DNA of 64,000 nucleotides from Flavobacterium saliperosum (lineage in GTDB: Bacteria; Bacteroidota; Bacteroidia; Flavobacteriales; Flavobacteriaceae), in the NCBI RefSeq assembly GCF_900100625.1, contig NZ_FMTY01000001.1, forward strand, positions 62,001 through 126,000, given 5' to 3'. How positions within the stretch are numbered: the stretch's first letter is position 1; every line of letters begins with the position of its first letter. The notes under the pieces are model-generated. The model searched no databases, was not told where the DNA came from, and was given only the letters and a program-made list of their open reading frames with translations. Made by a program: the position numbers and the translations under genes. Positions 52,849 through 62,853 of the stretch are shown here, one piece after another.

Positions 52849-52922
52849 GGCGAGGTAGCTCAGTCGGTTAGAGCGCAGGATTCATAACCCTGAGGTCACG
52901 GGTTCAACTCCCGTCTTCGCTA
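52849..52922 (+). tRNA. tRNA-Met (anticodon CAT)
   Basis: Cloverleaf folds by eye: acceptor GGCGAGG with CTTCGCT, D arm AGCTCAGTCGGTTAGAGC, anticodon stem CAGGA/CCCTG with loop TTCATAA (CAT at 52883-52885), T arm GGGTTCAACTCCC. Elongator type, because the first base pair is G-U and not the unpaired C-A of initiators; a CAT anticodon could also be the tRNA-Ile2 kind modified to lysidine. It is the likely attachment site of the island to its right. Confidence 0.93.
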
Positions 52923-53218
52923 CAAATTAAAGCCCTAAACCCTTGATTTTAAAGAGTTTAGGGTTTTTTATTCACGAAATTTTCACGAACCCCTACTCTT
53001 ACTCTTTTACTTTAGCCTTGTTTAATGTGTTGAAATTCAATACTCTATTTTTCAACCTTATTAACATGAATGGATTTCTCAGAAACTTTTATGAACGCAC
53101 AATTGTAAATTTATAAAAATATCTCTTTATAAGGAAGTTTATTGATTTTTCATTATAAATCAAATCCAATTTACTAATTAACAGACAACTAGATTTCAAA
53201 AATCAAAAAAAGACTCAT
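52923..53218. other. Island left edge: terminator, direct repeats, AT-rich stretch
   Basis: After the tRNA terminator, two copies of TTCACGAA (52971-52978 and 52982-52989) stand 11 bases apart. The rest to 53218 is AT-rich with no gene over 20 codons that looks real. No integrase is seen here. Confidence 0.55.
52932..52969. terminator. Terminator after tRNA-Met
   Basis: CCCTAAAC and GTTTAGGG with a T-run. Confidence 0.8.
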
Positions 53219-53788
53219 TCATAACAGCTCAATTGCTGATTGCCCAACAATCAAAGTTTCCTTTTTTAAAAATTTTAATGTCTTGTTTTTGTAGCTTATA
53301 TCCGTTAAGAAATTATTCCCAAGTCCATTTTTAATCGTAAACTGCATAGCATCCAGATTCAATTTTCCCTCTTCAACATTAAGTTCTAAAGTTGCCAATT
53401 GGCCTCGCTCTCGTTGTTGAATAATGATTCCTGATTGAAACTCTTCTTCTAAAATTTCTTTACGAATCTGAAACAACGGAAATAGTAGCATGTCACTGAA
53501 CAAATCCGCAGCATGCCATTTCATCACTTTTTTTCGGTCGAACCAAATTTCCAATTGATTTTTAGGGTTATCCAGCATTCCGGAAATACTTTGAGAAGGA
53601 ATGACTTCCAAGGATGAATATAGTGGGTGTTTTAAATCATAAAAGAAGAAGGGATCTATAATCTTATCGCTTAAACTGCTTTGTTTTCTTTCCGCTCTTT
53701 CTCTCCAATCTGCAATAGTGTCATCCGGCAAGTATAAACGTTTAAATTCGACCCCTTCTCCAAATATGTTGATTTTGATTTTTGGCAA
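53219..53788 (-). CDS. Unknown protein, end of the five-gene cluster
   Basis: 189 residues, soluble, no signal. Beta strands at both ends (PKIKINIFGEGVEFKRLYLP and the final YKNKTLKFLKKETLIVGQSAIELL) and a central YDLKHPLYSSLEVIP stretch. I do not recognise a family. It follows the 53802 gene by 13 bases and is the last gene of a leftward cluster that includes an Asp-box miniprotein; shared function is inference. Confidence 0.7.
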   Translation of the reverse strand: MPKIKINIFGEGVEFKRLYLPDDTIADWRERAERKQSSLSDKIIDPFFFYDLKHPLYSSLEVIPSQSISGMLDNPKNQLEIWFDRKKVMKWHAADLFSDMLLFPLFQIRKEILEEEFQSGIIIQQRERGQLATLELNVEEGKLNLDAMQFTIKNGLGNNFLTDISYKNKTLKFLKKETLIVGQSAIELL

Positions 53789-54556: not shown

Positions 54557-55675
54557 TCAATTTTCTAAATCCTTTTTAAGCTGATCAATTAAAGTGTCAT
54601 CATCAGGGTTCTCGGTTATTCCATTAACAAAATCTACCAAAGCAACAACTTGCCTTTCGTAGATAGTTCGTAGTAAAAACATTTCTCTTTTTGCAGATTT
54701 ATATACCCAACCGTACTGCATTTCCCATAGATTTCTAAAATAACTGATATCTGCTTTGCCTTTGTTACATCCGAGGACAAACAACTTTTCTGCAATTTCA
54801 AATCTTGATATCAAATGATTTCTGCTATTGTCGGCAACTGTTCCTGTAAATAATGGTTTTAAATTATCTAACACAAGATCCCTTGCCTTTGCGGCTAAAT
54901 ATTCAATCCGATCATTTTCAGTTTCATTTCTACTTACTTTTTTGATAAAATAAGACAGTAGATTATAGTTCATACTTTCTATATCCCAATAGCTTTTATC
55001 GCTGATATTATAAAGCCTTTTCACAATATTAATTTGTCCTTTGAAATAAGGCGCAACTGCTTCAAGACTTTCCCACAACTCAGTACGATCCTCAACAAAA
55101 TAGATAATTCGAACGCTACAAGAATCCTCAAAAGATTGCAAATACTCCAATTCTTCAAAATAGGCTTTTCCTAAATAATCCCGATACGAAATAAATTTTT
55201 CACTTCCTGCTTTCAAATCCTCATAGCAAAAGGTTTTAAGCTCCTTAAACCTATATTTCGGCAACGAGTAAATATTGAATAGTTGGTCATAATCAAAATG
55301 TGTTAACTCATGTAAAATTATACAAGACGCTTCGCAACAGATTCCAATTTCATTAAACAGGAAATTGTATTTTGATTGCAAATCAGATGATACATTTTGA
55401 GGCAGTCCTTTCTTTTTATTAAAAGCTCTGGATTGATTTTCTATTTTTCTGAAACAATGAAGTAGCGCATGAGAATCAATATCAGAATTAAAAAAAACAT
55501 CTGTTTTTTCAGGCAATTCAGGATAACTATAATAATAACTTTGTTGCTTTGTAATTTCATTATAACCGGATATGAAAATTGAAAAATCATAATTCAGATT
55601 TCTTTCATCAAAAAGAAGCTCCCATTGCTGAGAGCTTTTATTAAATACTTCCACAAAACAATAAGCAACTTCCAT
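54557..55675 (-). CDS. Unknown protein, large member of the five-gene cluster
   Basis: 372 residues from ATG 55675 (MEVAYCFVEVFNKSSQQWELLFDERNLNYDFSIF). An earlier in-frame ATG (55696) would overlap the upstream gene. The N-terminal region has the layout 'FVEV...W.LL...R.NYD.F..' and then LHELTHFDYDQLF. HELTH resembles a zinc-protease HExxH, but similar proteins carry an L-x-E-L-x-x-[FY]-D-[WY]-D pattern at this place, so I read it as a structural block, not a proven active site. C-terminal half is helical. Function unknown. Confidence 0.7.
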   Translation of the reverse strand: MEVAYCFVEVFNKSSQQWELLFDERNLNYDFSIFISGYNEITKQQSYYYSYPELPEKTDVFFNSDIDSHALLHCFRKIENQSRAFNKKKGLPQNVSSDLQSKYNFLFNEIGICCEASCIILHELTHFDYDQLFNIYSLPKYRFKELKTFCYEDLKAGSEKFISYRDYLGKAYFEELEYLQSFEDSCSVRIIYFVEDRTELWESLEAVAPYFKGQINIVKRLYNISDKSYWDIESMNYNLLSYFIKKVSRNETENDRIEYLAAKARDLVLDNLKPLFTGTVADNSRNHLISRFEIAEKLFVLGCNKGKADISYFRNLWEMQYGWVYKSAKREMFLLRTIYERQVVALVDFVNGITENPDDDTLIDQLKKDLEN

Positions 55676-55680
55676 AGTAC

Positions 55681-55905
55681 TTAACGTTTGTGCCAAGAAG
55701 CTCCTTTGTTTTTCGAATAATACACTCCGCGAGAAGTAGTAGCCAAAAGTTCACTTCCGTTTTCCATTAAATCCTGAAATTCAAAAATGGTAGATTTTGA
55801 CGATCTTGAATGCCAGGATCTGCCATCATTTTTAGAATACTCAATACAATTTTTCGAAGGATTAATTCGTAATAATTCTCCTTGATGTGCGACCATTTGT
55901 CCCAT
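55681..55905 (-). CDS. 74-residue Asp-box (BNR-like) miniprotein
   Basis: From ATG 55905 (MGQMVAHQGELLRINPSK). It has two Asp-box-like motifs, YSKNDGRSWHSR and YYSKNKGASWHKR (S-x-N/D-x-G-x-S/T-W), normally blades of sialidase-type propellers, but here the whole protein is two such repeats. It is the first gene of the cluster; the next gene starts 5 bases after its stop. Such minimal Asp-box proteins seem to be conserved partners of unknown systems, from memory only. Confidence 0.75.
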   Translation of the reverse strand: MGQMVAHQGELLRINPSKNCIEYSKNDGRSWHSRSSKSTIFEFQDLMENGSELLATTSRGVYYSKNKGASWHKR

Positions 55906-56049: not shown

Positions 56050-56814
56050 TTATTTTACGATTTCAAACGTACTTTTTGAAAAATAATTTTCTGGAATATT
56101 ACCACCTGCCCGACTATAATCTGATGGATGATATGCATAAAACAATTTAATTCCTTTTTTTAGAAGATGCTCTTTAATTTTATAATCTAAATCCTGAAAT
56201 CCTTTACTTTGAAAGAAAATAATTTCAGGATTTAATACTTCAATTTCAGTTAAAAAAAGATTTATTTCACGTTCTTTATCAATAAAAATCCTGTCAAAAT
56301 CACCTCTTCTTGATATAATTTCATTCGTTTCGGGATTTCTTTCACCTCTTCCAATTGTAACATATTTGAAAAAATTAGTCATTGCAATATAAGACAATGG
56401 ATTTTCACTTGGGTGAATGGGAACTTTTCTCAATATAGAATTGAATGTTTTCCCATATTTTGTTGATTTTGTGTCTTCCCAAAACTCATTTAGATTTAAG
56501 TCATCTTTTAAAAAATAAAGTCCCGTAAAATATGTCCCTCCAATATGCGGGTTCACGCCTCTTAAATTGTTCGTTTCAATGTCGGATCTATTTTCTAATG
56601 TTTGAATCTCATTAGGAGTTTCATCTTTTCCAATATCATAACCCACAATCAAAATTCTTTTTGCTTTACCATATTTTGAACCAACATAAGGATAGGTGGC
56701 AAGTTTCCTCGTTTTATCTGTAGCAACAATTCCTGTATTTCTATCTACAAAATTGTCCTTGAAAAGAATTTCTTCGTAAATATTTAATATTGATTTTTTT
56801 ATTTCAGTTAACAT
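56050..56814 (-). CDS. Uracil-DNA-glycosylase-superfamily-like protein
   Basis: 254 residues. KRILIVGYDIGKDE near residue 55 resembles UDG motif 1 (G-x-D-P), PEIIFFQSKGF is a central strand, and AYHPSDYSRAGG at residues ~227-238 resembles motif 2 (H-P-S). The Pro of motif 1 is not conserved, so activity on uracil is uncertain; it may recognise another modified base. Its place in a defence island suggests a role against modified phage DNA (inference). Confidence 0.55.
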   Translation of the reverse strand: MLTEIKKSILNIYEEILFKDNFVDRNTGIVATDKTRKLATYPYVGSKYGKAKRILIVGYDIGKDETPNEIQTLENRSDIETNNLRGVNPHIGGTYFTGLYFLKDDLNLNEFWEDTKSTKYGKTFNSILRKVPIHPSENPLSYIAMTNFFKYVTIGRGERNPETNEIISRRGDFDRIFIDKEREINLFLTEIEVLNPEIIFFQSKGFQDLDYKIKEHLLKKGIKLFYAYHPSDYSRAGGNIPENYFSKSTFEIVK

Positions 56815-56954: not shown

Positions 56955-57911
56955 TCAATAAGCAATTACCATTATCGAAAGTGCATTACCAAGTGAACAG
57001 TCTTCCGATACAGACATTGTAATAGCACTCCTGTTTTTCAGAGTATTAAAGATAACATTATCTATTTCTCGTTTTTCTTCAACAGTCATTTCTGTACTTC
57101 CAGAATTTATTTGCAGAAGAATATTGTTGACGCCTTCAAATCTTTCCCTTTCAGACAACGTATTCTTCAAAGCCGCTTCAATTGCCTTTTTTGCTCTATC
57201 AGTCCCCTCCCCATCTCCAATACCTATGAAAAAAGGATTATCATCAATGTTGTTTTTGAAAAACAATTTTAAATCCAACCGATTATCATTTATAAAACCC
57301 ATTGGCATTATGGCTTTTACCAATCGGATTACAATTTCATTTGCTTTGCTTTCGCTATTTTTAAAACTGAGATTACCGTAAAGCTTGCCGATTTTAGAAT
57401 GTTTAATAACCAATACTAAATCACAATCTTCTCGCAATTTTCTTAATGCTTTGTTAGCTATGTTCTTTGTGTTTTCGCTTTCAAAATCAAAAGGAGTATA
57501 AACAATTGCCCCAACAAACACCCCTCTCTTATAAGCAATTTGTGCAATTACCGGAGTAGCTCCTGCCTCAGTTGTACCTCCTAAACGGGAAATAAGGATT
57601 GTCATTTTTGATTGCTCTCCAAATAGCGCGTCGAATTGATCAAAACCATATATTGCTAAATTTGTAGCTAATTCCACTTCTGAATTCAGAACGGAATCCA
57701 TACCTATTTCAACCTGGTTCTCAATCGATAAATGTTTAATTTTTCCGGTTCCAAGTAGTATTTTATTCTGAACCGAACTATTTGCCAAATCCTTTGCATT
57801 AATATCGCAAACAATGCAATCAGTATTTTTGATTGCCTCGACTGAGATTTTTTCTACTATTTGGTGCCCGGTTTTACCAACTCCTATAATTTTAATTTCG
57901 TTTGTACTCAT
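56955..57911 (-). CDS. Divergent FtsZ/tubulin-like GTPase
   Basis: 318 residues. Aligned by eye with FtsZ: IKIIGVGKTGHQIVEKI (5-21) = first GTP loop; DCIVCDINAKDL (31-42); TILISRLGGTTEAGATPVIAQIA (104-126) = T4 loop region, where GGGTGTGA has become GGTTEAGA; FVGAIVYTPFDFE (132-144); GFINDNRLDLKLF (205-217) = T7 loop, first Asp replaced by Asn, second Asp kept; FIGIGDGEGTDRAKKAIEAAL (228-248). The C-terminal FtsA/ZipA-binding tail is missing. It has the fold of FtsZ, probably binds GTP, and is not the division FtsZ. Biological role unknown. A TAGATTTG box lies upstream at 57934-57941. Confidence 0.8.
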   Translation of the reverse strand: MSTNEIKIIGVGKTGHQIVEKISVEAIKNTDCIVCDINAKDLANSSVQNKILLGTGKIKHLSIENQVEIGMDSVLNSEVELATNLAIYGFDQFDALFGEQSKMTILISRLGGTTEAGATPVIAQIAYKRGVFVGAIVYTPFDFESENTKNIANKALRKLREDCDLVLVIKHSKIGKLYGNLSFKNSESKANEIVIRLVKAIMPMGFINDNRLDLKLFFKNNIDDNPFFIGIGDGEGTDRAKKAIEAALKNTLSERERFEGVNNILLQINSGSTEMTVEEKREIDNVIFNTLKNRSAITMSVSEDCSLGNALSIMVIAY

Positions 57912-57988
57912 TTTTGATTGATTATTTTCAGTACAAATCTAAATGGAGACAGTGCCAAAATACGGCGGTTTTAAACTTGAGAAAAACA

Positions 57989-58027
57989 AAAATCCTTTGC
58001 AAAGGTTTGAATCTTAGCAAAGGATTT
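57989..58027 (-). terminator. Terminator after the nuclease-like gene
   Basis: AAATCCTTTGC and GCAAAGGATTT around a 15-base loop, A/T tracts outside. Confidence 0.7.
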
Positions 58028-58048: not shown

Positions 58049-59287
58049 TTAGTTATTTTTTATTATTCTTATTTCTTCGTGAATTTTGATTAAATCATTT
58101 TCTCTGAATTCAATATAACTAATAATCTGTTGCGCTAAAACCGATACTAACTCATCTTTTTTATCTTTATTTTTTCCTAAGAAACTAATGAAATTAGAAT
58201 CACTGAAATCAATTTTAAAATTCTCAAAATCTTGAAAATATTTGATTTCTCTCCACCAACCCGATTTCTGAAATTCAGAATACTTTTCAAAAACACCTTT
58301 ATTTATAGCATGCAAATCAATTATTCCGTAAAATAATTCTTTACTGTTGTTTCCATTCCCGCTAAAAGGCTCTATTCCAAACAAAACAGAATTGCCTTTA
58401 TATTTTTGTAGTTCAATCCAAATTTTAGAATTCTTATCGCCAACATTACTTCCTTGATCAGAAACATCATATTTGTCTTTTAATTTTTCTTTTAGTTTAT
58501 TAATAATGTCAGCTCTTATACCTCCACAAATTTTGTATTTTACATTATCAAAATCTTTTACGATTTGTTCTGCTGCTGAAAAATTTGCTAGAATTAGATC
58601 CTGTATTTCGCTACTCATTTTTTTATTTGTTGATTGGTTAGTTAATTTTTTTATTAGATGTAAATATTGCGCTAATGTTTCTCTAATTATTGGTAGAGAA
58701 TGTGTTTTCTCAAGACTGTTTTCAATCCAGTTTTTAATATCGTTTTTATAAGACATTAAAAATATTTCTTCCAAGTTTAAATCTTTATCATTACCAAGTT
58801 TATAGCTATCAGAAGAAGGCTCTTTACCATCCAAAGTAAGATAAATAAGTACACAATCAGGATAGCTGTTTTTATATCTTAAAAGTTGACCTTTTTGATC
58901 ACCAGCGTAGATTTTATTTTCAATCACAATTTGATATTTTGAGTCTTTAATTACAATATCAATAAACCCTCCTTCAGAATATTCTTTGTCAATGGTTCCT
59001 ATATGTTCTTCAACTATAACCTGCGTATTTTCAAAATCAAAAGATTCTTTTATGGCCACCAAAGAGTCAATTTTATCAAAAAATAATTTCAAAAAAACAC
59101 TTCCTTGAGCGTGTTTCCCTTTTGGGTTTAAAAACTCTGCAATTATTCTTGAATGTGTTCTAACTTCATCACTTTCTGCTCTCATAACAGAAAAAATATT
59201 AAAATTCTCTCCGGTAATTTTCGCTATTTCATCATATTTCTTTTGTATGATTGTAACCTGTTGCAATAGGTTATTAATTTTATCCAT
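58049..59287 (-). CDS. PD-(D/E)XK nuclease superfamily protein
   Basis: 412 residues. A conserved N-terminal block (IFSVMRAESDEVRTHSRIIAEFLNPKGKHAQGSVFLKLFF pattern) is followed by the nuclease core: D110 in GGFIDIVIKD, then E123-x-K125 in VIENKIYAGDQKGQLLRY. This is the PDDEXK_4 (PF14281-type) family frequent in restriction and defence islands. It presumably cuts or binds DNA; specificity unknown. The following exonuclease gene is upstream by 17 bases in the same direction. Confidence 0.82.
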   Translation of the reverse strand: MDKINNLLQQVTIIQKKYDEIAKITGENFNIFSVMRAESDEVRTHSRIIAEFLNPKGKHAQGSVFLKLFFDKIDSLVAIKESFDFENTQVIVEEHIGTIDKEYSEGGFIDIVIKDSKYQIVIENKIYAGDQKGQLLRYKNSYPDCVLIYLTLDGKEPSSDSYKLGNDKDLNLEEIFLMSYKNDIKNWIENSLEKTHSLPIIRETLAQYLHLIKKLTNQSTNKKMSSEIQDLILANFSAAEQIVKDFDNVKYKICGGIRADIINKLKEKLKDKYDVSDQGSNVGDKNSKIWIELQKYKGNSVLFGIEPFSGNGNNSKELFYGIIDLHAINKGVFEKYSEFQKSGWWREIKYFQDFENFKIDFSDSNFISFLGKNKDKKDELVSVLAQQIISYIEFRENDLIKIHEEIRIIKNN

Positions 59288-59304: not shown

Positions 59305-59781
59305 TTAAATTTCATTTAAACTCCGCAAATACAACTCTGCACAAGCTCTTGCATCACTCAATGCGTCATGATGGTTTAAAGGTATATTATATTCGTTGCA
59401 CAAGTTAGCCAGATTGGATTTGTAAATTTTATAAGTGCAAAACTTATTGTAATCCGGTGTAGCCATTCCATAATACTCCAGTGTTTTATTCAAAACCGGA
59501 AAATCGAAACCGAAGCCGTTGTGCGCAATTACATTTTGGTCTTCTATAAAAGGAGCTATCATGTGCCAAATCTTGTTAAAAGTAGGTGCATTAACTGTGT
59601 CTCTGGCAGAAATACCATGTATCATTGTGAAATTTGACCAATAATAATTATCGGGCGGTTGCACTAAAATATCAAGTTCCTTGGTTATGATACCGTTCTC
59701 AATTCTAACTAGACCCACTTGGCAGATACTCCAACGATAACCTTGAGCGGTTTCGAAATCTATTGCTGTGAAGGAATCCAT
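59305..59781 (-). CDS. DEDDh 3'-5' exonuclease (DnaQ-like)
   Basis: 158 residues. DnaQ-fold with all acidic sites: D8-x-E10 in AIDFET, D93 in GFDFPVLN, H138 and D143 in HHDALSDARAC. Degrades DNA or RNA from the 3' end; small free-standing forms act in repair or RNA turnover. It begins directly after the stop of the WYL gene (no gap), so the two are coupled. Confidence 0.9.
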   Translation of the reverse strand: MDSFTAIDFETAQGYRWSICQVGLVRIENGIITKELDILVQPPDNYYWSNFTMIHGISARDTVNAPTFNKIWHMIAPFIEDQNVIAHNGFGFDFPVLNKTLEYYGMATPDYNKFCTYKIYKSNLANLCNEYNIPLNHHDALSDARACAELYLRSLNEI

Positions 59782-60678
59782 TTACTTATATAGTTTTATC
59801 ATATCCATTACTCTGTCTCTTATATTATTTCGGAGTACTTCTGGCTCAATTACTTTCACTTCAGAACCAAATCGCATTAGTTCCATTATAAGATCATTGG
59901 TAGGATGAATAAATAACTCGACCACTATTTTTTCATCATTATCCTTTATTGTTTTTTGTGAAGAATGCAAAGGAAACGACTTGATGTAGTTCCCTTGCTG
60001 CCACGAAAATTCCAATACCACTTTTTGAGCCGGAGCATAGGTTTCCACTCCAAAAGCATGTTGGTACTCTTTTTCCATATCAAAAGGAATTGATTTGAAT
60101 TTTATATCGGATATTCTTAAATCCGAAATTCTGTCGAAACCAAAATTTTTGATGTTTCCGTCTTTGTTATCCTGTGCTATCAGATACCAACGGTGTTGCG
60201 ATTCTTTAATCGCTATCGGTTTGACTGTTCTAAGTGTTTTTTCATCTTCCCAAAATTTGATATGGGTAAAAATCATCTGAAAATTATTCTGGATGGCATA
60301 TAAAATTCCGTTTATCAAATTGGTTCCGGAGACTTTACGACTTTCCAGATATATACTTGGGGTAATTTTATTCCCTTCTTTGAGTGCCTGATGAATAGAA
60401 AAGGCTTCCACCATTCTCGAAACCGACGGATCTTCAATTTCATCCTCAATAAAGTACACTTTGTCTTTACGGTTGTATTGGATTAAGATGCCAAACAAAT
60501 CGAAAATATCTTTTTTGTCCCGATCGAAGGTACGTACAGAAAATTCGAAATTATTTTCCATATCATCGTTTTCCAACCTGTTCATCACGTATTTATGTAA
60601 CTCCTGAAAGTCACTAGGTACTGATTTCAATCTATCAACAATGTATAAGTATCGTTTTATGAAGCCTACTTTTGCCAT
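59782..60678 (-). CDS. WYL-domain regulator
   Basis: 298 residues. N-terminal winged-helix-type DNA-binding part (KRYLYIVDRLKSVPSDFQELHKYV, VRTFDRDKKDIFDLFGI), then the WYL domain (QHRWYLIAQDNKDGNIKNFGFDRISDL) and a WCX C-terminal part (PTNDLIMELMRFGSEVKVIEPE). Such proteins sense ligands, often nucleic acid ends or nucleotides, and repress defence or repair genes. It heads the exonuclease and nuclease-like genes and is divergent from the Dpt operon. Confidence 0.9.
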   Translation of the reverse strand: MAKVGFIKRYLYIVDRLKSVPSDFQELHKYVMNRLENDDMENNFEFSVRTFDRDKKDIFDLFGILIQYNRKDKVYFIEDEIEDPSVSRMVEAFSIHQALKEGNKITPSIYLESRKVSGTNLINGILYAIQNNFQMIFTHIKFWEDEKTLRTVKPIAIKESQHRWYLIAQDNKDGNIKNFGFDRISDLRISDIKFKSIPFDMEKEYQHAFGVETYAPAQKVVLEFSWQQGNYIKSFPLHSSQKTIKDNDEKIVVELFIHPTNDLIMELMRFGSEVKVIEPEVLRNNIRDRVMDMIKLYK

Positions 60679-61110: not shown

Positions 61111-62853
61111 ATGACAATTAATCTATTTCTAGAGGAGTTACAAAAATTAAGAGAATCATCTAAATACGCAGTTGCACAAGGTACTTATTCCAATTTAAAT
61201 GGATTTAAAAAATACTTGCATATTGAACGAGAGGTTGAGAAAAAGTTAAAAAAGATTATTACCAAAGCAAGTCAAAAAACTACTGCACAACTACTACTTG
61301 TCTGTGGAAATGTTGGTGATGGGAAATCACATATATTATCTCATCTCCATGATGAACTTAAAAGTGAAATAAGTCAATTTACGATACATAATGACGCTAC
61401 TGAATCTCATAATCCACATGAATCTTCTAACCAAACCTTATACAAATTATTGCAAGGTTTTAAAGATGAAAACCTAAAGACTTCACACGATAAAATAATA
61501 CTAGCTATTAATCTTGGGACTCTAAGCAAGTTTATTGAAGAATTTGGAACCGAGTACACTCAATTAAAGGAGTATATTGCTTTTAATAAAATATTGGACA
61601 CTGATGTTGTACACAATGATGATTTCATTGAAGCTAGCCCTTTTCATCATGTGAATTTTACCGATTACCATTTGTATTCTTTAACTGCGGAAGGTGCTAT
61701 TTCGGAAATTATTACTACACTATTTGAAAGGATTGTTGCGAATAATGATGCCAATACACTTTACAAAGCCTATGTTTCCTATAAAGAAAGTTTAGATGAA
61801 GGGCTGTATTGTCCTATACTGTATAATTATGAATTTCTTTTTAATGATAACAATAGAAAAATTATTGCCCAACTAATCATTAAAGCCATCATAAAGAGCA
61901 AAGAAATAGTATCTCTGCGAACATTATTGAATTTTATATATGATTTAATTGTACCTATTGATTTAGCCAGTCTAAATGATAATGACTATTTCAAACGTAT
62001 TGAAAATTTTAGCAGTGCGGAGTACTTATCTAACTTATTACCTAATTATATATTCGAACACCCCGAACTGTCAAGTTTATTTGAAAAGATAGAACGTCTA
62101 GACCCTTGTTTGACTAGGAATGCTGAGACCGATGAAGTTTTACTCTCCTTGATTAATGCTTCTAATCCGGTCCCACTTTTTGCAGATCATATCGCGGCCA
62201 ACTATATCGATACTATTCAATCAAGATTAGCTAATACACTAATTGTAAAAAGTACCCTTTCTCGTTTTTTTATTCGATTGAATTACTTCAGTAATTATTA
62301 TGACCAAGATAGCTTAAAGGAAGTAGATTATGAAGAATACTTAGTGTGGCTGTATCATTACAATAACAACAACCCTGCCTATATTCAAAAGATATATGGC
62401 CTTGTCGAGGTTGCAGCTAGAAATTGGAATGGAGATGCAAAATCTAACGGAAAAGTGATAATCAACGTTGGTAAAAAACAGACGAAATACAGAGTATTTA
62501 AAGACTTTGACCCTATACCGGACTTAAAATTGAATCCTAAAAATAGTGATGATATTTTGCACAAATTCACGCAAGAGTTTAGCTTGGCATACAAGATAAG
62601 CCAGGAAAAAGAAAGTCTTAAAATACATGTAGATTATAGTTTATTTAAAACCTTAAAAATGGTTTCGAAAGGTTATCGTCCTAATAAAAAAGACAATAAC
62701 AATTTTATATATTTTGTCAATGCTATCACGACACTTACCAATCAAAATAACCACAAAGCTTCACTATATATAGATGAAATTAATATAGGTAAAGCGGTAG
62801 ATTATCAATTTTCAAAAAATCCTTTTGGAGGCTATACTTTTCAAGTACTATGA
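61111..62853 (+). CDS. dptF: DNA phosphorothioation-dependent restriction protein DptF
   Basis: 580 residues. N-terminal P-loop GNVGDGKS (66-73) in LLLVCGNVGDGKSHILSHL, followed by a long helical region without recognised domain. Together with DptG and DptH it forms the restriction arm that attacks DNA lacking phosphorothioate modification made by DndABCDE. I assign it by the P-loop pattern, length and the directly following DptG-like frame (ATGA overlap). The overall family match is from memory. More AT-rich than the core genes. Confidence 0.78.
   Translation: MTINLFLEELQKLRESSKYAVAQGTYSNLNGFKKYLHIEREVEKKLKKIITKASQKTTAQLLLVCGNVGDGKSHILSHLHDELKSEISQFTIHNDATESHNPHESSNQTLYKLLQGFKDENLKTSHDKIILAINLGTLSKFIEEFGTEYTQLKEYIAFNKILDTDVVHNDDFIEASPFHHVNFTDYHLYSLTAEGAISEIITTLFERIVANNDANTLYKAYVSYKESLDEGLYCPILYNYEFLFNDNNRKIIAQLIIKAIIKSKEIVSLRTLLNFIYDLIVPIDLASLNDNDYFKRIENFSSAEYLSNLLPNYIFEHPELSSLFEKIERLDPCLTRNAETDEVLLSLINASNPVPLFADHIAANYIDTIQSRLANTLIVKSTLSRFFIRLNYFSNYYDQDSLKEVDYEEYLVWLYHYNNNNPAYIQKIYGLVEVAARNWNGDAKSNGKVIINVGKKQTKYRVFKDFDPIPDLKLNPKNSDDILHKFTQEFSLAYKISQEKESLKIHVDYSLFKTLKMVSKGYRPNKKDNNNFIYFVNAITTLTNQNNHKASLYIDEINIGKAVDYQFSKNPFGGYTFQVL

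Follow-up and report, generated by a model that had tools for sequence, protein, structure and literature searches.

Here, we propose that the gene at positions 56955..57911 (minus strand) of the window, by which we mean the whole 64,000-nucleotide stretch of Flavobacterium saliperosum DNA analysed, derives from FtsZ but serves outside division, as a member of a Flavobacterium defence cassette. This is the best explanation of our findings, and it supports the original prediction, made from the letters of the window, of a protein that resembles FtsZ, is set among defence genes and is distinct from the FtsZ of division. A single open reading frame with an ATG start covers the interval and encodes 318 amino acids. 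The product matches the Pfam family Tubulin with an E of 3.3e-16 and FtsZ_C with an E of 4.4e-10, each match clearing its curated threshold, and a phmmer search of PDB sequences returned 49 distinct matches (E 0.01), each named FtsZ, the best of them with an E of 1.8e-25. The AlphaFold2 model, built on a 36-row alignment (pLDDT 73.6, pTM 0.71), shows the long helix (residues 183-205) and the C-terminal domain, and in a Foldseek search of the PDB with this model (E 10) the best 50 of 1950 matches were all FtsZ, most with a TM score of about 0.7. Pfam, AlphaFold2 and Foldseek thus bear out the predicted FtsZ-type protein, and a tubulin fold is present in the model. Against TIGR00065, the NCBIfam FtsZ equivalog, the protein scores 117.7 bits, below the cut-off of 295.2, and is therefore a relative of FtsZ that falls under the equivalog line.

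The motifs of the window protein depart from those of FtsZ at several points. T1 and T4 are degenerate, with T4 reading GGTTEAGA at residues 111-118, as first noted, and the FtsZ signature GGGTG(T/S)G being absent. The FtsZ_C match ends at residue 317 of 318, so that no C-terminal linker or tail follows, again as predicted. The full set of N, D and D of the FtsZ T7 region is also absent: in the 36-row alignment, R211, D213 and L216 align with N207, D209 and D212 of E. coli FtsZ (numbering from PMC8456036). The related protein of genome G676 reads NIDLKII across the same region. We conclude from the alignment that the first Asp is probably retained (D213) and the second lost (L216). The original prediction had Asn replacing the first catalytic Asp, a reading also produced by a HMMER pairwise alignment with one Pseudomonas FtsZ, where it needs a three-residue insertion downstream; it is probably wrong, since the 36-row alignment and G676 put D213 at that position. 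As the pLDDT of the model is below 50 at residues 207-212, which of the two T7 Asp residues is lost depends on the alignment.

We draw a distinction between this protein and the FtsZ of its own genome. A canonical 656-aa ftsZ lies elsewhere (match C19:383484-384395) and adjoins ftsA, murC, murG and an ftsW-like gene (names assigned from translations); it is this copy, and not the window gene, that occupies the ftsA/ftsQ/mur neighbourhood. In the window the FtsZ-derived gene does not adjoin division genes, and none were recognised in the other, partly annotated loci described below. With bacterial FtsZ (TIGR00065) the window protein shares fold, domain order and descent, being 35% identical to the FtsZ of its own genome and 31-35% identical to host FtsZ; it differs in being a second copy, away from the division genes, that has lost T4, one T7 Asp and the tail.

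Makarova and Koonin (2010, PMC2875224) described two other FtsZ-superfamily members, FtsZl1 and FtsZl2, which like the window protein are found in addition to a normal FtsZ. According to that paper, FtsZl1 accompanies vWA, kinase and membrane genes and has no recognisable T6-H7, whereas the window gene lies in no such operon and its product has helix 183-205 and a C-terminal domain. FtsZl2 is described there as having an additional C-terminal region of about 300 aa, in contrast to the window protein, which totals 318 aa. Membership of TubZ or PhuZ finds no support, the window protein having no PHROG match at E 0.001, and no PADLOC 2.0.0 family was matched by the protein at E 0.01. Where plasmid matches (the best 40 of 85) and phage matches (17) fall on a named feature, it is annotated as FtsZ or cell division protein, and many are unannotated. 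A peptide-pattern search for close relatives of the window protein found none in genome contigs or in viral contigs.

How widespread are such genes? A profile of three FtsZ-like sequences (E 1e-8, at most five candidates scored per genome) found at least one match in 393 of 398 Flavobacterium genomes and two in 16. In G544, G586 and G686 the two matches abut or overlap within a single stretch; we took them as a broken or frameshifted canonical ftsZ and left these genomes out of the count. Extra FtsZ-derived ORFs are thus present in 13 of the 398 genomes (G000, G007, G616, G676, G562, G555, G566, G729, G638, G805, G741, G637 and G014) and number 14, with two in G805. In the sampled genomes the family is confined to this one genus. 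No second FtsZ was found outside it in 297 genomes of the family (299 searched, with two matches in the window's genome only), and the window protein, searched against 397 family genomes at E 1e-43, retrieved itself and two frames of 658-660 aa, which we regard as canonical ftsZ. In a wider contig scan, the best 80 of 303 relatives consist of one fusion (L049) and 79 frames with a GGxxGxG T4, likewise taken as canonical.

The FtsZ-derived genes are tied to a cassette marked by a WYL regulator. With the WYL protein of the window as query (E 1e-80, the same 398 genomes), matches were found in 28 genomes, two of them at just 45-48% identity, and these 28 include every one of the 13 genomes that have an FtsZ-derived ORF (hypergeometric p = 4.5e-17). 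In all 11 loci that are long enough, the WYL gene is followed on the same strand, at a distance of 0.7-8.1 kb, by the FtsZ-derived gene; in G637 and G014 the two genes are on separate short contigs. No FtsZ-derived match was found in 15 of the 28 genomes with the WYL gene (in G567 and G465 the contig ends less than 3.5 kb from the WYL gene), and hence the FtsZ-derived gene is not an obligatory part of the cassette. The constancy of WYL across the cassettes follows from the way the loci were selected. WYL regulators have been reported to co-localise with defence islands (PMC9122601) and they stand among defence genes here too; the title and the start of the abstract of that report make no mention of FtsZ, DnaA or DnaB derivatives. 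In viral contigs we found no WYL match, and just four distant matches (28-29%) to the DEDDh exonuclease that usually accompanies it.

Eight of the 11 placed loci, the window among them, have this DEDDh gene, and BLAST finds none in L157, L162 and L163; in the G007 locus it appears frameshifted (L026:5299-5779), with the N-terminal motif in another frame. Between the WYL and FtsZ-derived genes, 9 of 11 loci have a GmrSD or PDDEXK_4 homologue, none being found in G741. By similarity, 8 of the 11 placed cassettes carry a homologue of the GmrSD type IV restriction enzymes (on the opposite strand in the G616 locus), whereas the window has a PDDEXK_4 nuclease in that place. Because the type of nuclease varies among loci, no single partner enzyme is indicated.

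In the window itself, the cassette runs along the minus strand from a WYL/WCX regulator (59782..60678, 298 aa, Pfam) through a DEDDh 3'-5' exonuclease (59305..59781, 158 aa, Pfam; 73-74% identical in two loci with fusions) and a PDDEXK_4 nuclease (58049..59287, 412 aa, Pfam; PADLOC PDC-S26) to the FtsZ-derived gene. An 11-bp perfect inverted repeat, found by eye and terminator-like, lies in the gap between the nuclease and FtsZ-derived genes (57990-58000 / 58017-58027). Further along the same strand are a 254-aa UDG-like protein (56050..56814) and two proteins with no assigned function, of 379 aa (54557..55696) and 189 aa (53219..53788). The 379-aa protein has homologues in FtsZ-derived loci L156, L160 and L161 and in FtsZ-less WYL loci L166 and L179, and the 189-aa protein in five other FtsZ-derived loci and in FtsZ-less WYL loci L166, L168 and L170; a fold model of the latter was discarded (pLDDT 35.6, two-row alignment). 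The original prediction named a UDG-like protein, a nuclease-like protein and Dpt restriction genes as neighbours. The PDDEXK_4 nuclease and the Dpt genes are indeed there, and the UDG-like match is below the cut-off (PF03167, 20.4 bits against 24.3). Surveyed across loci, the recurrent partners are the WYL, DEDDh and nuclease genes and not the UDG-like gene, which has no homologue in a clustering of 13 loci. A role of the UDG-like protein as a mimic was rejected on that ground and for lack of any PDB match at E 1.

The cassette adjoins a DNA phosphorothioation modification and restriction cluster (window 61111-62853, continuing at L027:282-12211) of DptF, DptH, a DGQHR protein, a DndE-like protein, DndD and DndC. 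DptF is in the window; past its end DptH, DndD and DndC score above the cut-offs and DndE below. A serine recombinase follows the cluster (L027:12840-13457), and a tRNA-Met at 52849-52923 lies at the edge of the island and is a possible integration point. Among the partly annotated loci compared, Dpt genes were seen in the window's own genome only.

What have the FtsZ-derived proteins kept? Of the 14 ORFs, 13 have the C-terminal domain, and 10 have a partial GTPase domain or none. Four ORFs retain the two domains whole or for the greater part (those of the window and G676 and the fusions of G007 and G616 described below, the N-domain of G007 being gapped). Nine are C-domain forms, whether standing alone (G729, G638, G805a and G637, 105-153 aa), placed behind an unrelated N-terminal domain (G562, G555 and G566), or divergent forms of 234-242 aa that match from the late GTPase domain onward (G805b and G014). 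The G741 ORF has the N-part only and lies near an IS-like gene pair. T4 is intact in G676 alone, a relative that keeps GGGTGTGA, and reads GGTTEAG in the window, GGATETE in G007 and AETTKAL in G616. By manual reading the second T7 Asp has become Leu in the window, Ile in G676 and Asn in G007, G729 and G638, and is still Asp in G616. The best-conserved stretches of the C-domain are ASGxxRAxKAI and TIDEIGEINxYIQ. The closest relatives of the window copy are those of G676 (42% identity over its length) and G741 (46% over the N-part); a tree of the derivatives supports the pairs window with G676 and G007 with G616, on very long branches.

FtsZ is not the only replication or division protein to have been cut down in these cassettes. 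In G007, a locus with WYL and DEDDh genes, a 554-aa fusion joins a DnaA AAA+ domain (Bac_DnaA E 2.5e-44) to the FtsZ-like domain, and G616 has a second DnaA-FtsZ fusion with one in-frame TAA; a genus-wide search for the fusion (E 1e-70) gave a second match in these two genomes alone. Separate proteins with DnaA domain III are encoded in G676 (461 aa, two genes upstream of the FtsZ-derived gene) and in G637 (269 aa, near the FtsZ_C fragment), making four loci in which domain III occurs without domains I and IV. All four derivatives keep Walker A and have Glu for the first Walker B Asp. All four of their genomes are among the 13 with FtsZ-derived ORFs, and none was found in the fetched, partly short, stretches of the 15 other WYL genomes (p 0.035).

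DnaB, cut to its linker and C-domain, occurs in four WYL loci of the WYL genomes surveyed (G562, G658, G637 and G008), directly adjoining the WYL gene in the first three and sharing a cassette with DEDDh and a GmrSD homologue in G008. Identity to the G562 derivative is 57-59% for G658 and G637, 49% for G008 and about 42% for host DnaB, a long copy of which (frames of 525-530 aa) is retained in each of the four genomes. As phage DnaB-like families match these derivatives too (phrog_19, E 4.1e-41), their descent from the host is likely and no firmer than that. Pfam analysis of 20 more WYL-flanking ORFs in other loci revealed one RecQ-type helicase and no further truncated replication or division protein. 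A 133-aa ORF of G616 (L129:4483-4884) was rejected as a DnaN mimic, its clamp N-domain match being below the cut-off (E 0.0055) and no dnaN match being found in four genomes at E 1; G616 also has a second short sliding-clamp-like piece on another contig.

The dN/dS ratios of the closest FtsZ-derived pairs, 0.17 for G729/G638 and 0.19 for G562/G555, indicate that closely related copies are under purifying selection. Three more distant pairs gave 0.36-0.44 with dS near or above 1; the two of them that include the window copy are at 0.41-0.44 with dS saturated and so give no direct support for purifying selection on this copy. The ratio was 0.22-0.25 in two DnaB-derived pairs and 0.20 in a DnaA-derived pair, with dS above 1 in all. 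The FtsZ-derived genes also seem to have a promoter of their own. The sequence TAGATTTG at 57934..57941 (minus strand), 30 nt upstream of the window's FtsZ-derived start, fits TAnnTTTG, which we take to be the consensus of the Bacteroidetes -7 element. Of 11 FtsZ-derived starts, 10 have such a box 30-78 nt upstream, with 0.116 expected per 150 bp (binomial 2.5e-9), and no match to a -33 element was found upstream of these genes. Within 100 nt upstream the box precedes 10 of 11 FtsZ-derived genes, 4 of 10 WYL genes and none of 8 DEDDh genes or 8 first nucleases (controls from the same loci, without those in which the gene is lacking, is part of a fusion or lies on the opposite strand), and hence expression is probably separate from that of the nuclease genes.

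How, then, might the FtsZ-derived protein act? The make-up of the cassette (WYL, usually DEDDh, an exchangeable nuclease and apparently separate expression), together with the loss of the GTP site, points to action through its surface. Such a surface has two fitting uses: as bait for phage inhibitors or as a brake on host FtsZ. The phage-division interference raised in the original prediction is one of these two readings and remains live. We tentatively favour the bait over the brake, in that the protein would be a surrogate of host FtsZ, serving as a decoy and possibly a sensor for FtsZ inhibitors made by phages. The C-domain that it and its relatives keep bears the synergy (T7) loop face, and they do without the tail and without a GTP site that is intact. 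By binding phage-made inhibitors, the surrogate would spare FtsZ or report infection to the cassette, and the derivatives with the DnaA AAA+ domain or the DnaB C-domain would stand in for other host proteins that phages target. We infer the binding of phage proteins as well as any coupling to the nucleases.

A recent finding makes the bait reading concrete: according to a 2026 report (PMC13423816), CapRelEbc recognises FtsZ-bound Gp0.4, a phage protein that was modelled on the synergy-loop face of FtsZ. FtsZ would thus take part in phage sensing in both cases; as described there, however, CapRelEbc relies on the host's own FtsZ, whereas the Flavobacterium cassettes encode a separate, degenerate copy. 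FtsZ inhibitors are made by several phages, according to another paper (PMC11897509). More speculatively, the cassettes may hold a repertoire of cut-down FtsZ, DnaA and DnaB that are integrated decoys wired to restriction nucleases, luring phage proteins directed against division and replication. Bacteria would then have a counterpart of the integrated-decoy strategy of plant immune receptors.

Several facts count against a decoy. An older prediction, given in PMC11897509, placed Gp0.4 between helices 1, 5 and 7 of FtsZ, a site that is missing in the C-domain forms. If the protein imitates a binding surface, its identity of 31-35% to host FtsZ is low, and conservation of the T7 residues is poor. 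The findings that suit a decoy also fit a dominant-negative brake, in which the FtsZ-derived protein would cap or poison host FtsZ filaments, and the DnaA and DnaB derivatives their own assemblies, to stop the cell cycle during infection. This is the most serious rival, albeit a somewhat less likely one. Each derivative keeps a core and loses a part (the tail of FtsZ, domains I and IV of DnaA, the N-domain of DnaB), and in 5 of 6 readable sequences another residue replaces the second T7 Asp; changes of D212 are a known way to GTPase-dead, interfering FtsZ. There is precedent in the toxin CbtA, whose targets are FtsZ and MreB (PMC5624674). However, a promoter-like box of its own is ill-suited to a toxic protein unless repressed, no constant antitoxin-like partner was seen, and fragments of 105-128 aa would need to fold and to bind host FtsZ.

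It is improbable that the protein serves the cassette nucleases as a scaffold or regulatory subunit, with the FtsZ and DnaA domains as NTP-dependent oligomerisation modules. The conserved Walker A of the DnaA derivatives and the cassette neighbourhood are in keeping with such a role, but nuclease families differ by locus, 2 of 11 loci have no nuclease between the WYL and FtsZ-derived genes, the latter seem separately transcribed, and many FtsZ-derived ORFs are without any NTP site. Very improbable is a GTP-binding filament or a GTP sensor, which the original prediction had also considered: the FtsZ fold and the intact motif of G676 would suit it, yet T4 is destroyed in three of the four two-domain ORFs (window, G007 and G616) and the GTPase domain is absent or partial in the 10 ORFs noted above. 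Least likely of all is that these genes are functionless remnants of duplicated ftsZ, dnaA and dnaB, caught in islands and decaying there, for while the TAA of the G616 fusion, the G741 piece beside its IS-like pair and the higher dN/dS of the three more distant FtsZ-derived pairs would fit decay, this is contradicted for the conserved pairs by a dN/dS of 0.17-0.25 in five (two FtsZ-, two DnaB- and one DnaA-derived) and is at odds with the box at 10 of 11 genes and the exclusive location.

Returning to the decoy, if it is correct, then the imitations in a cassette name in advance the host proteins that phages attack, and pull-down with them would be a direct route to unknown phage inhibitors of FtsZ, DnaA and DnaB. 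Bacterial immunity would then include imitation of the target, beyond watching the real target as CapRelEbc does, and have its own counterpart of the integrated-decoy strategy of plants. Should the derivatives be brakes instead, they would form a new class of cell-cycle effectors built from the cell's own machinery. Either way, our findings suggest that imitations of host proteins that viruses target may serve bacteria as a bait or as a brake. Among the papers listed for the open-licence PMC literature, judged by title and start of abstract, we found no description of FtsZ-, DnaA- or DnaB-derived genes in defence islands, and thus no precedent for the composition of the cassettes; the original prediction, too, knew of no system composed like that of the window. 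The novelty lies in the composition of the cassettes, and the function is proposed from sequence.

Some further features accompany these cassettes. A Chryseobacterium balustinum plasmid (L192, NZ_CP033935.1) has a cassette of DEDDh, two DUF262 genes, an AAA ATPase and WYL, after which come a GTPase and a dynamin-like GTPase; it has no FtsZ or DnaA match, and its AAA ATPase is marginal to the DnaB profile (E 0.036). In L026, too, a protein of the dynamin family is encoded upstream of WYL. The WYL regulator of G741 is fused to an EVE domain (L163:12774-14357), a reader of modified bases. A domain of about 140 aa, alone or N-terminal to FtsZ_C, recurs in WYL cassettes (L157:8812-9399, L168:7544-7969, L172:11069-11488 and L173:8637-9056), and two FtsZ-derived loci encode related leucine-rich-repeat-like proteins (L026:11647-12741 and L159:10564-11826).
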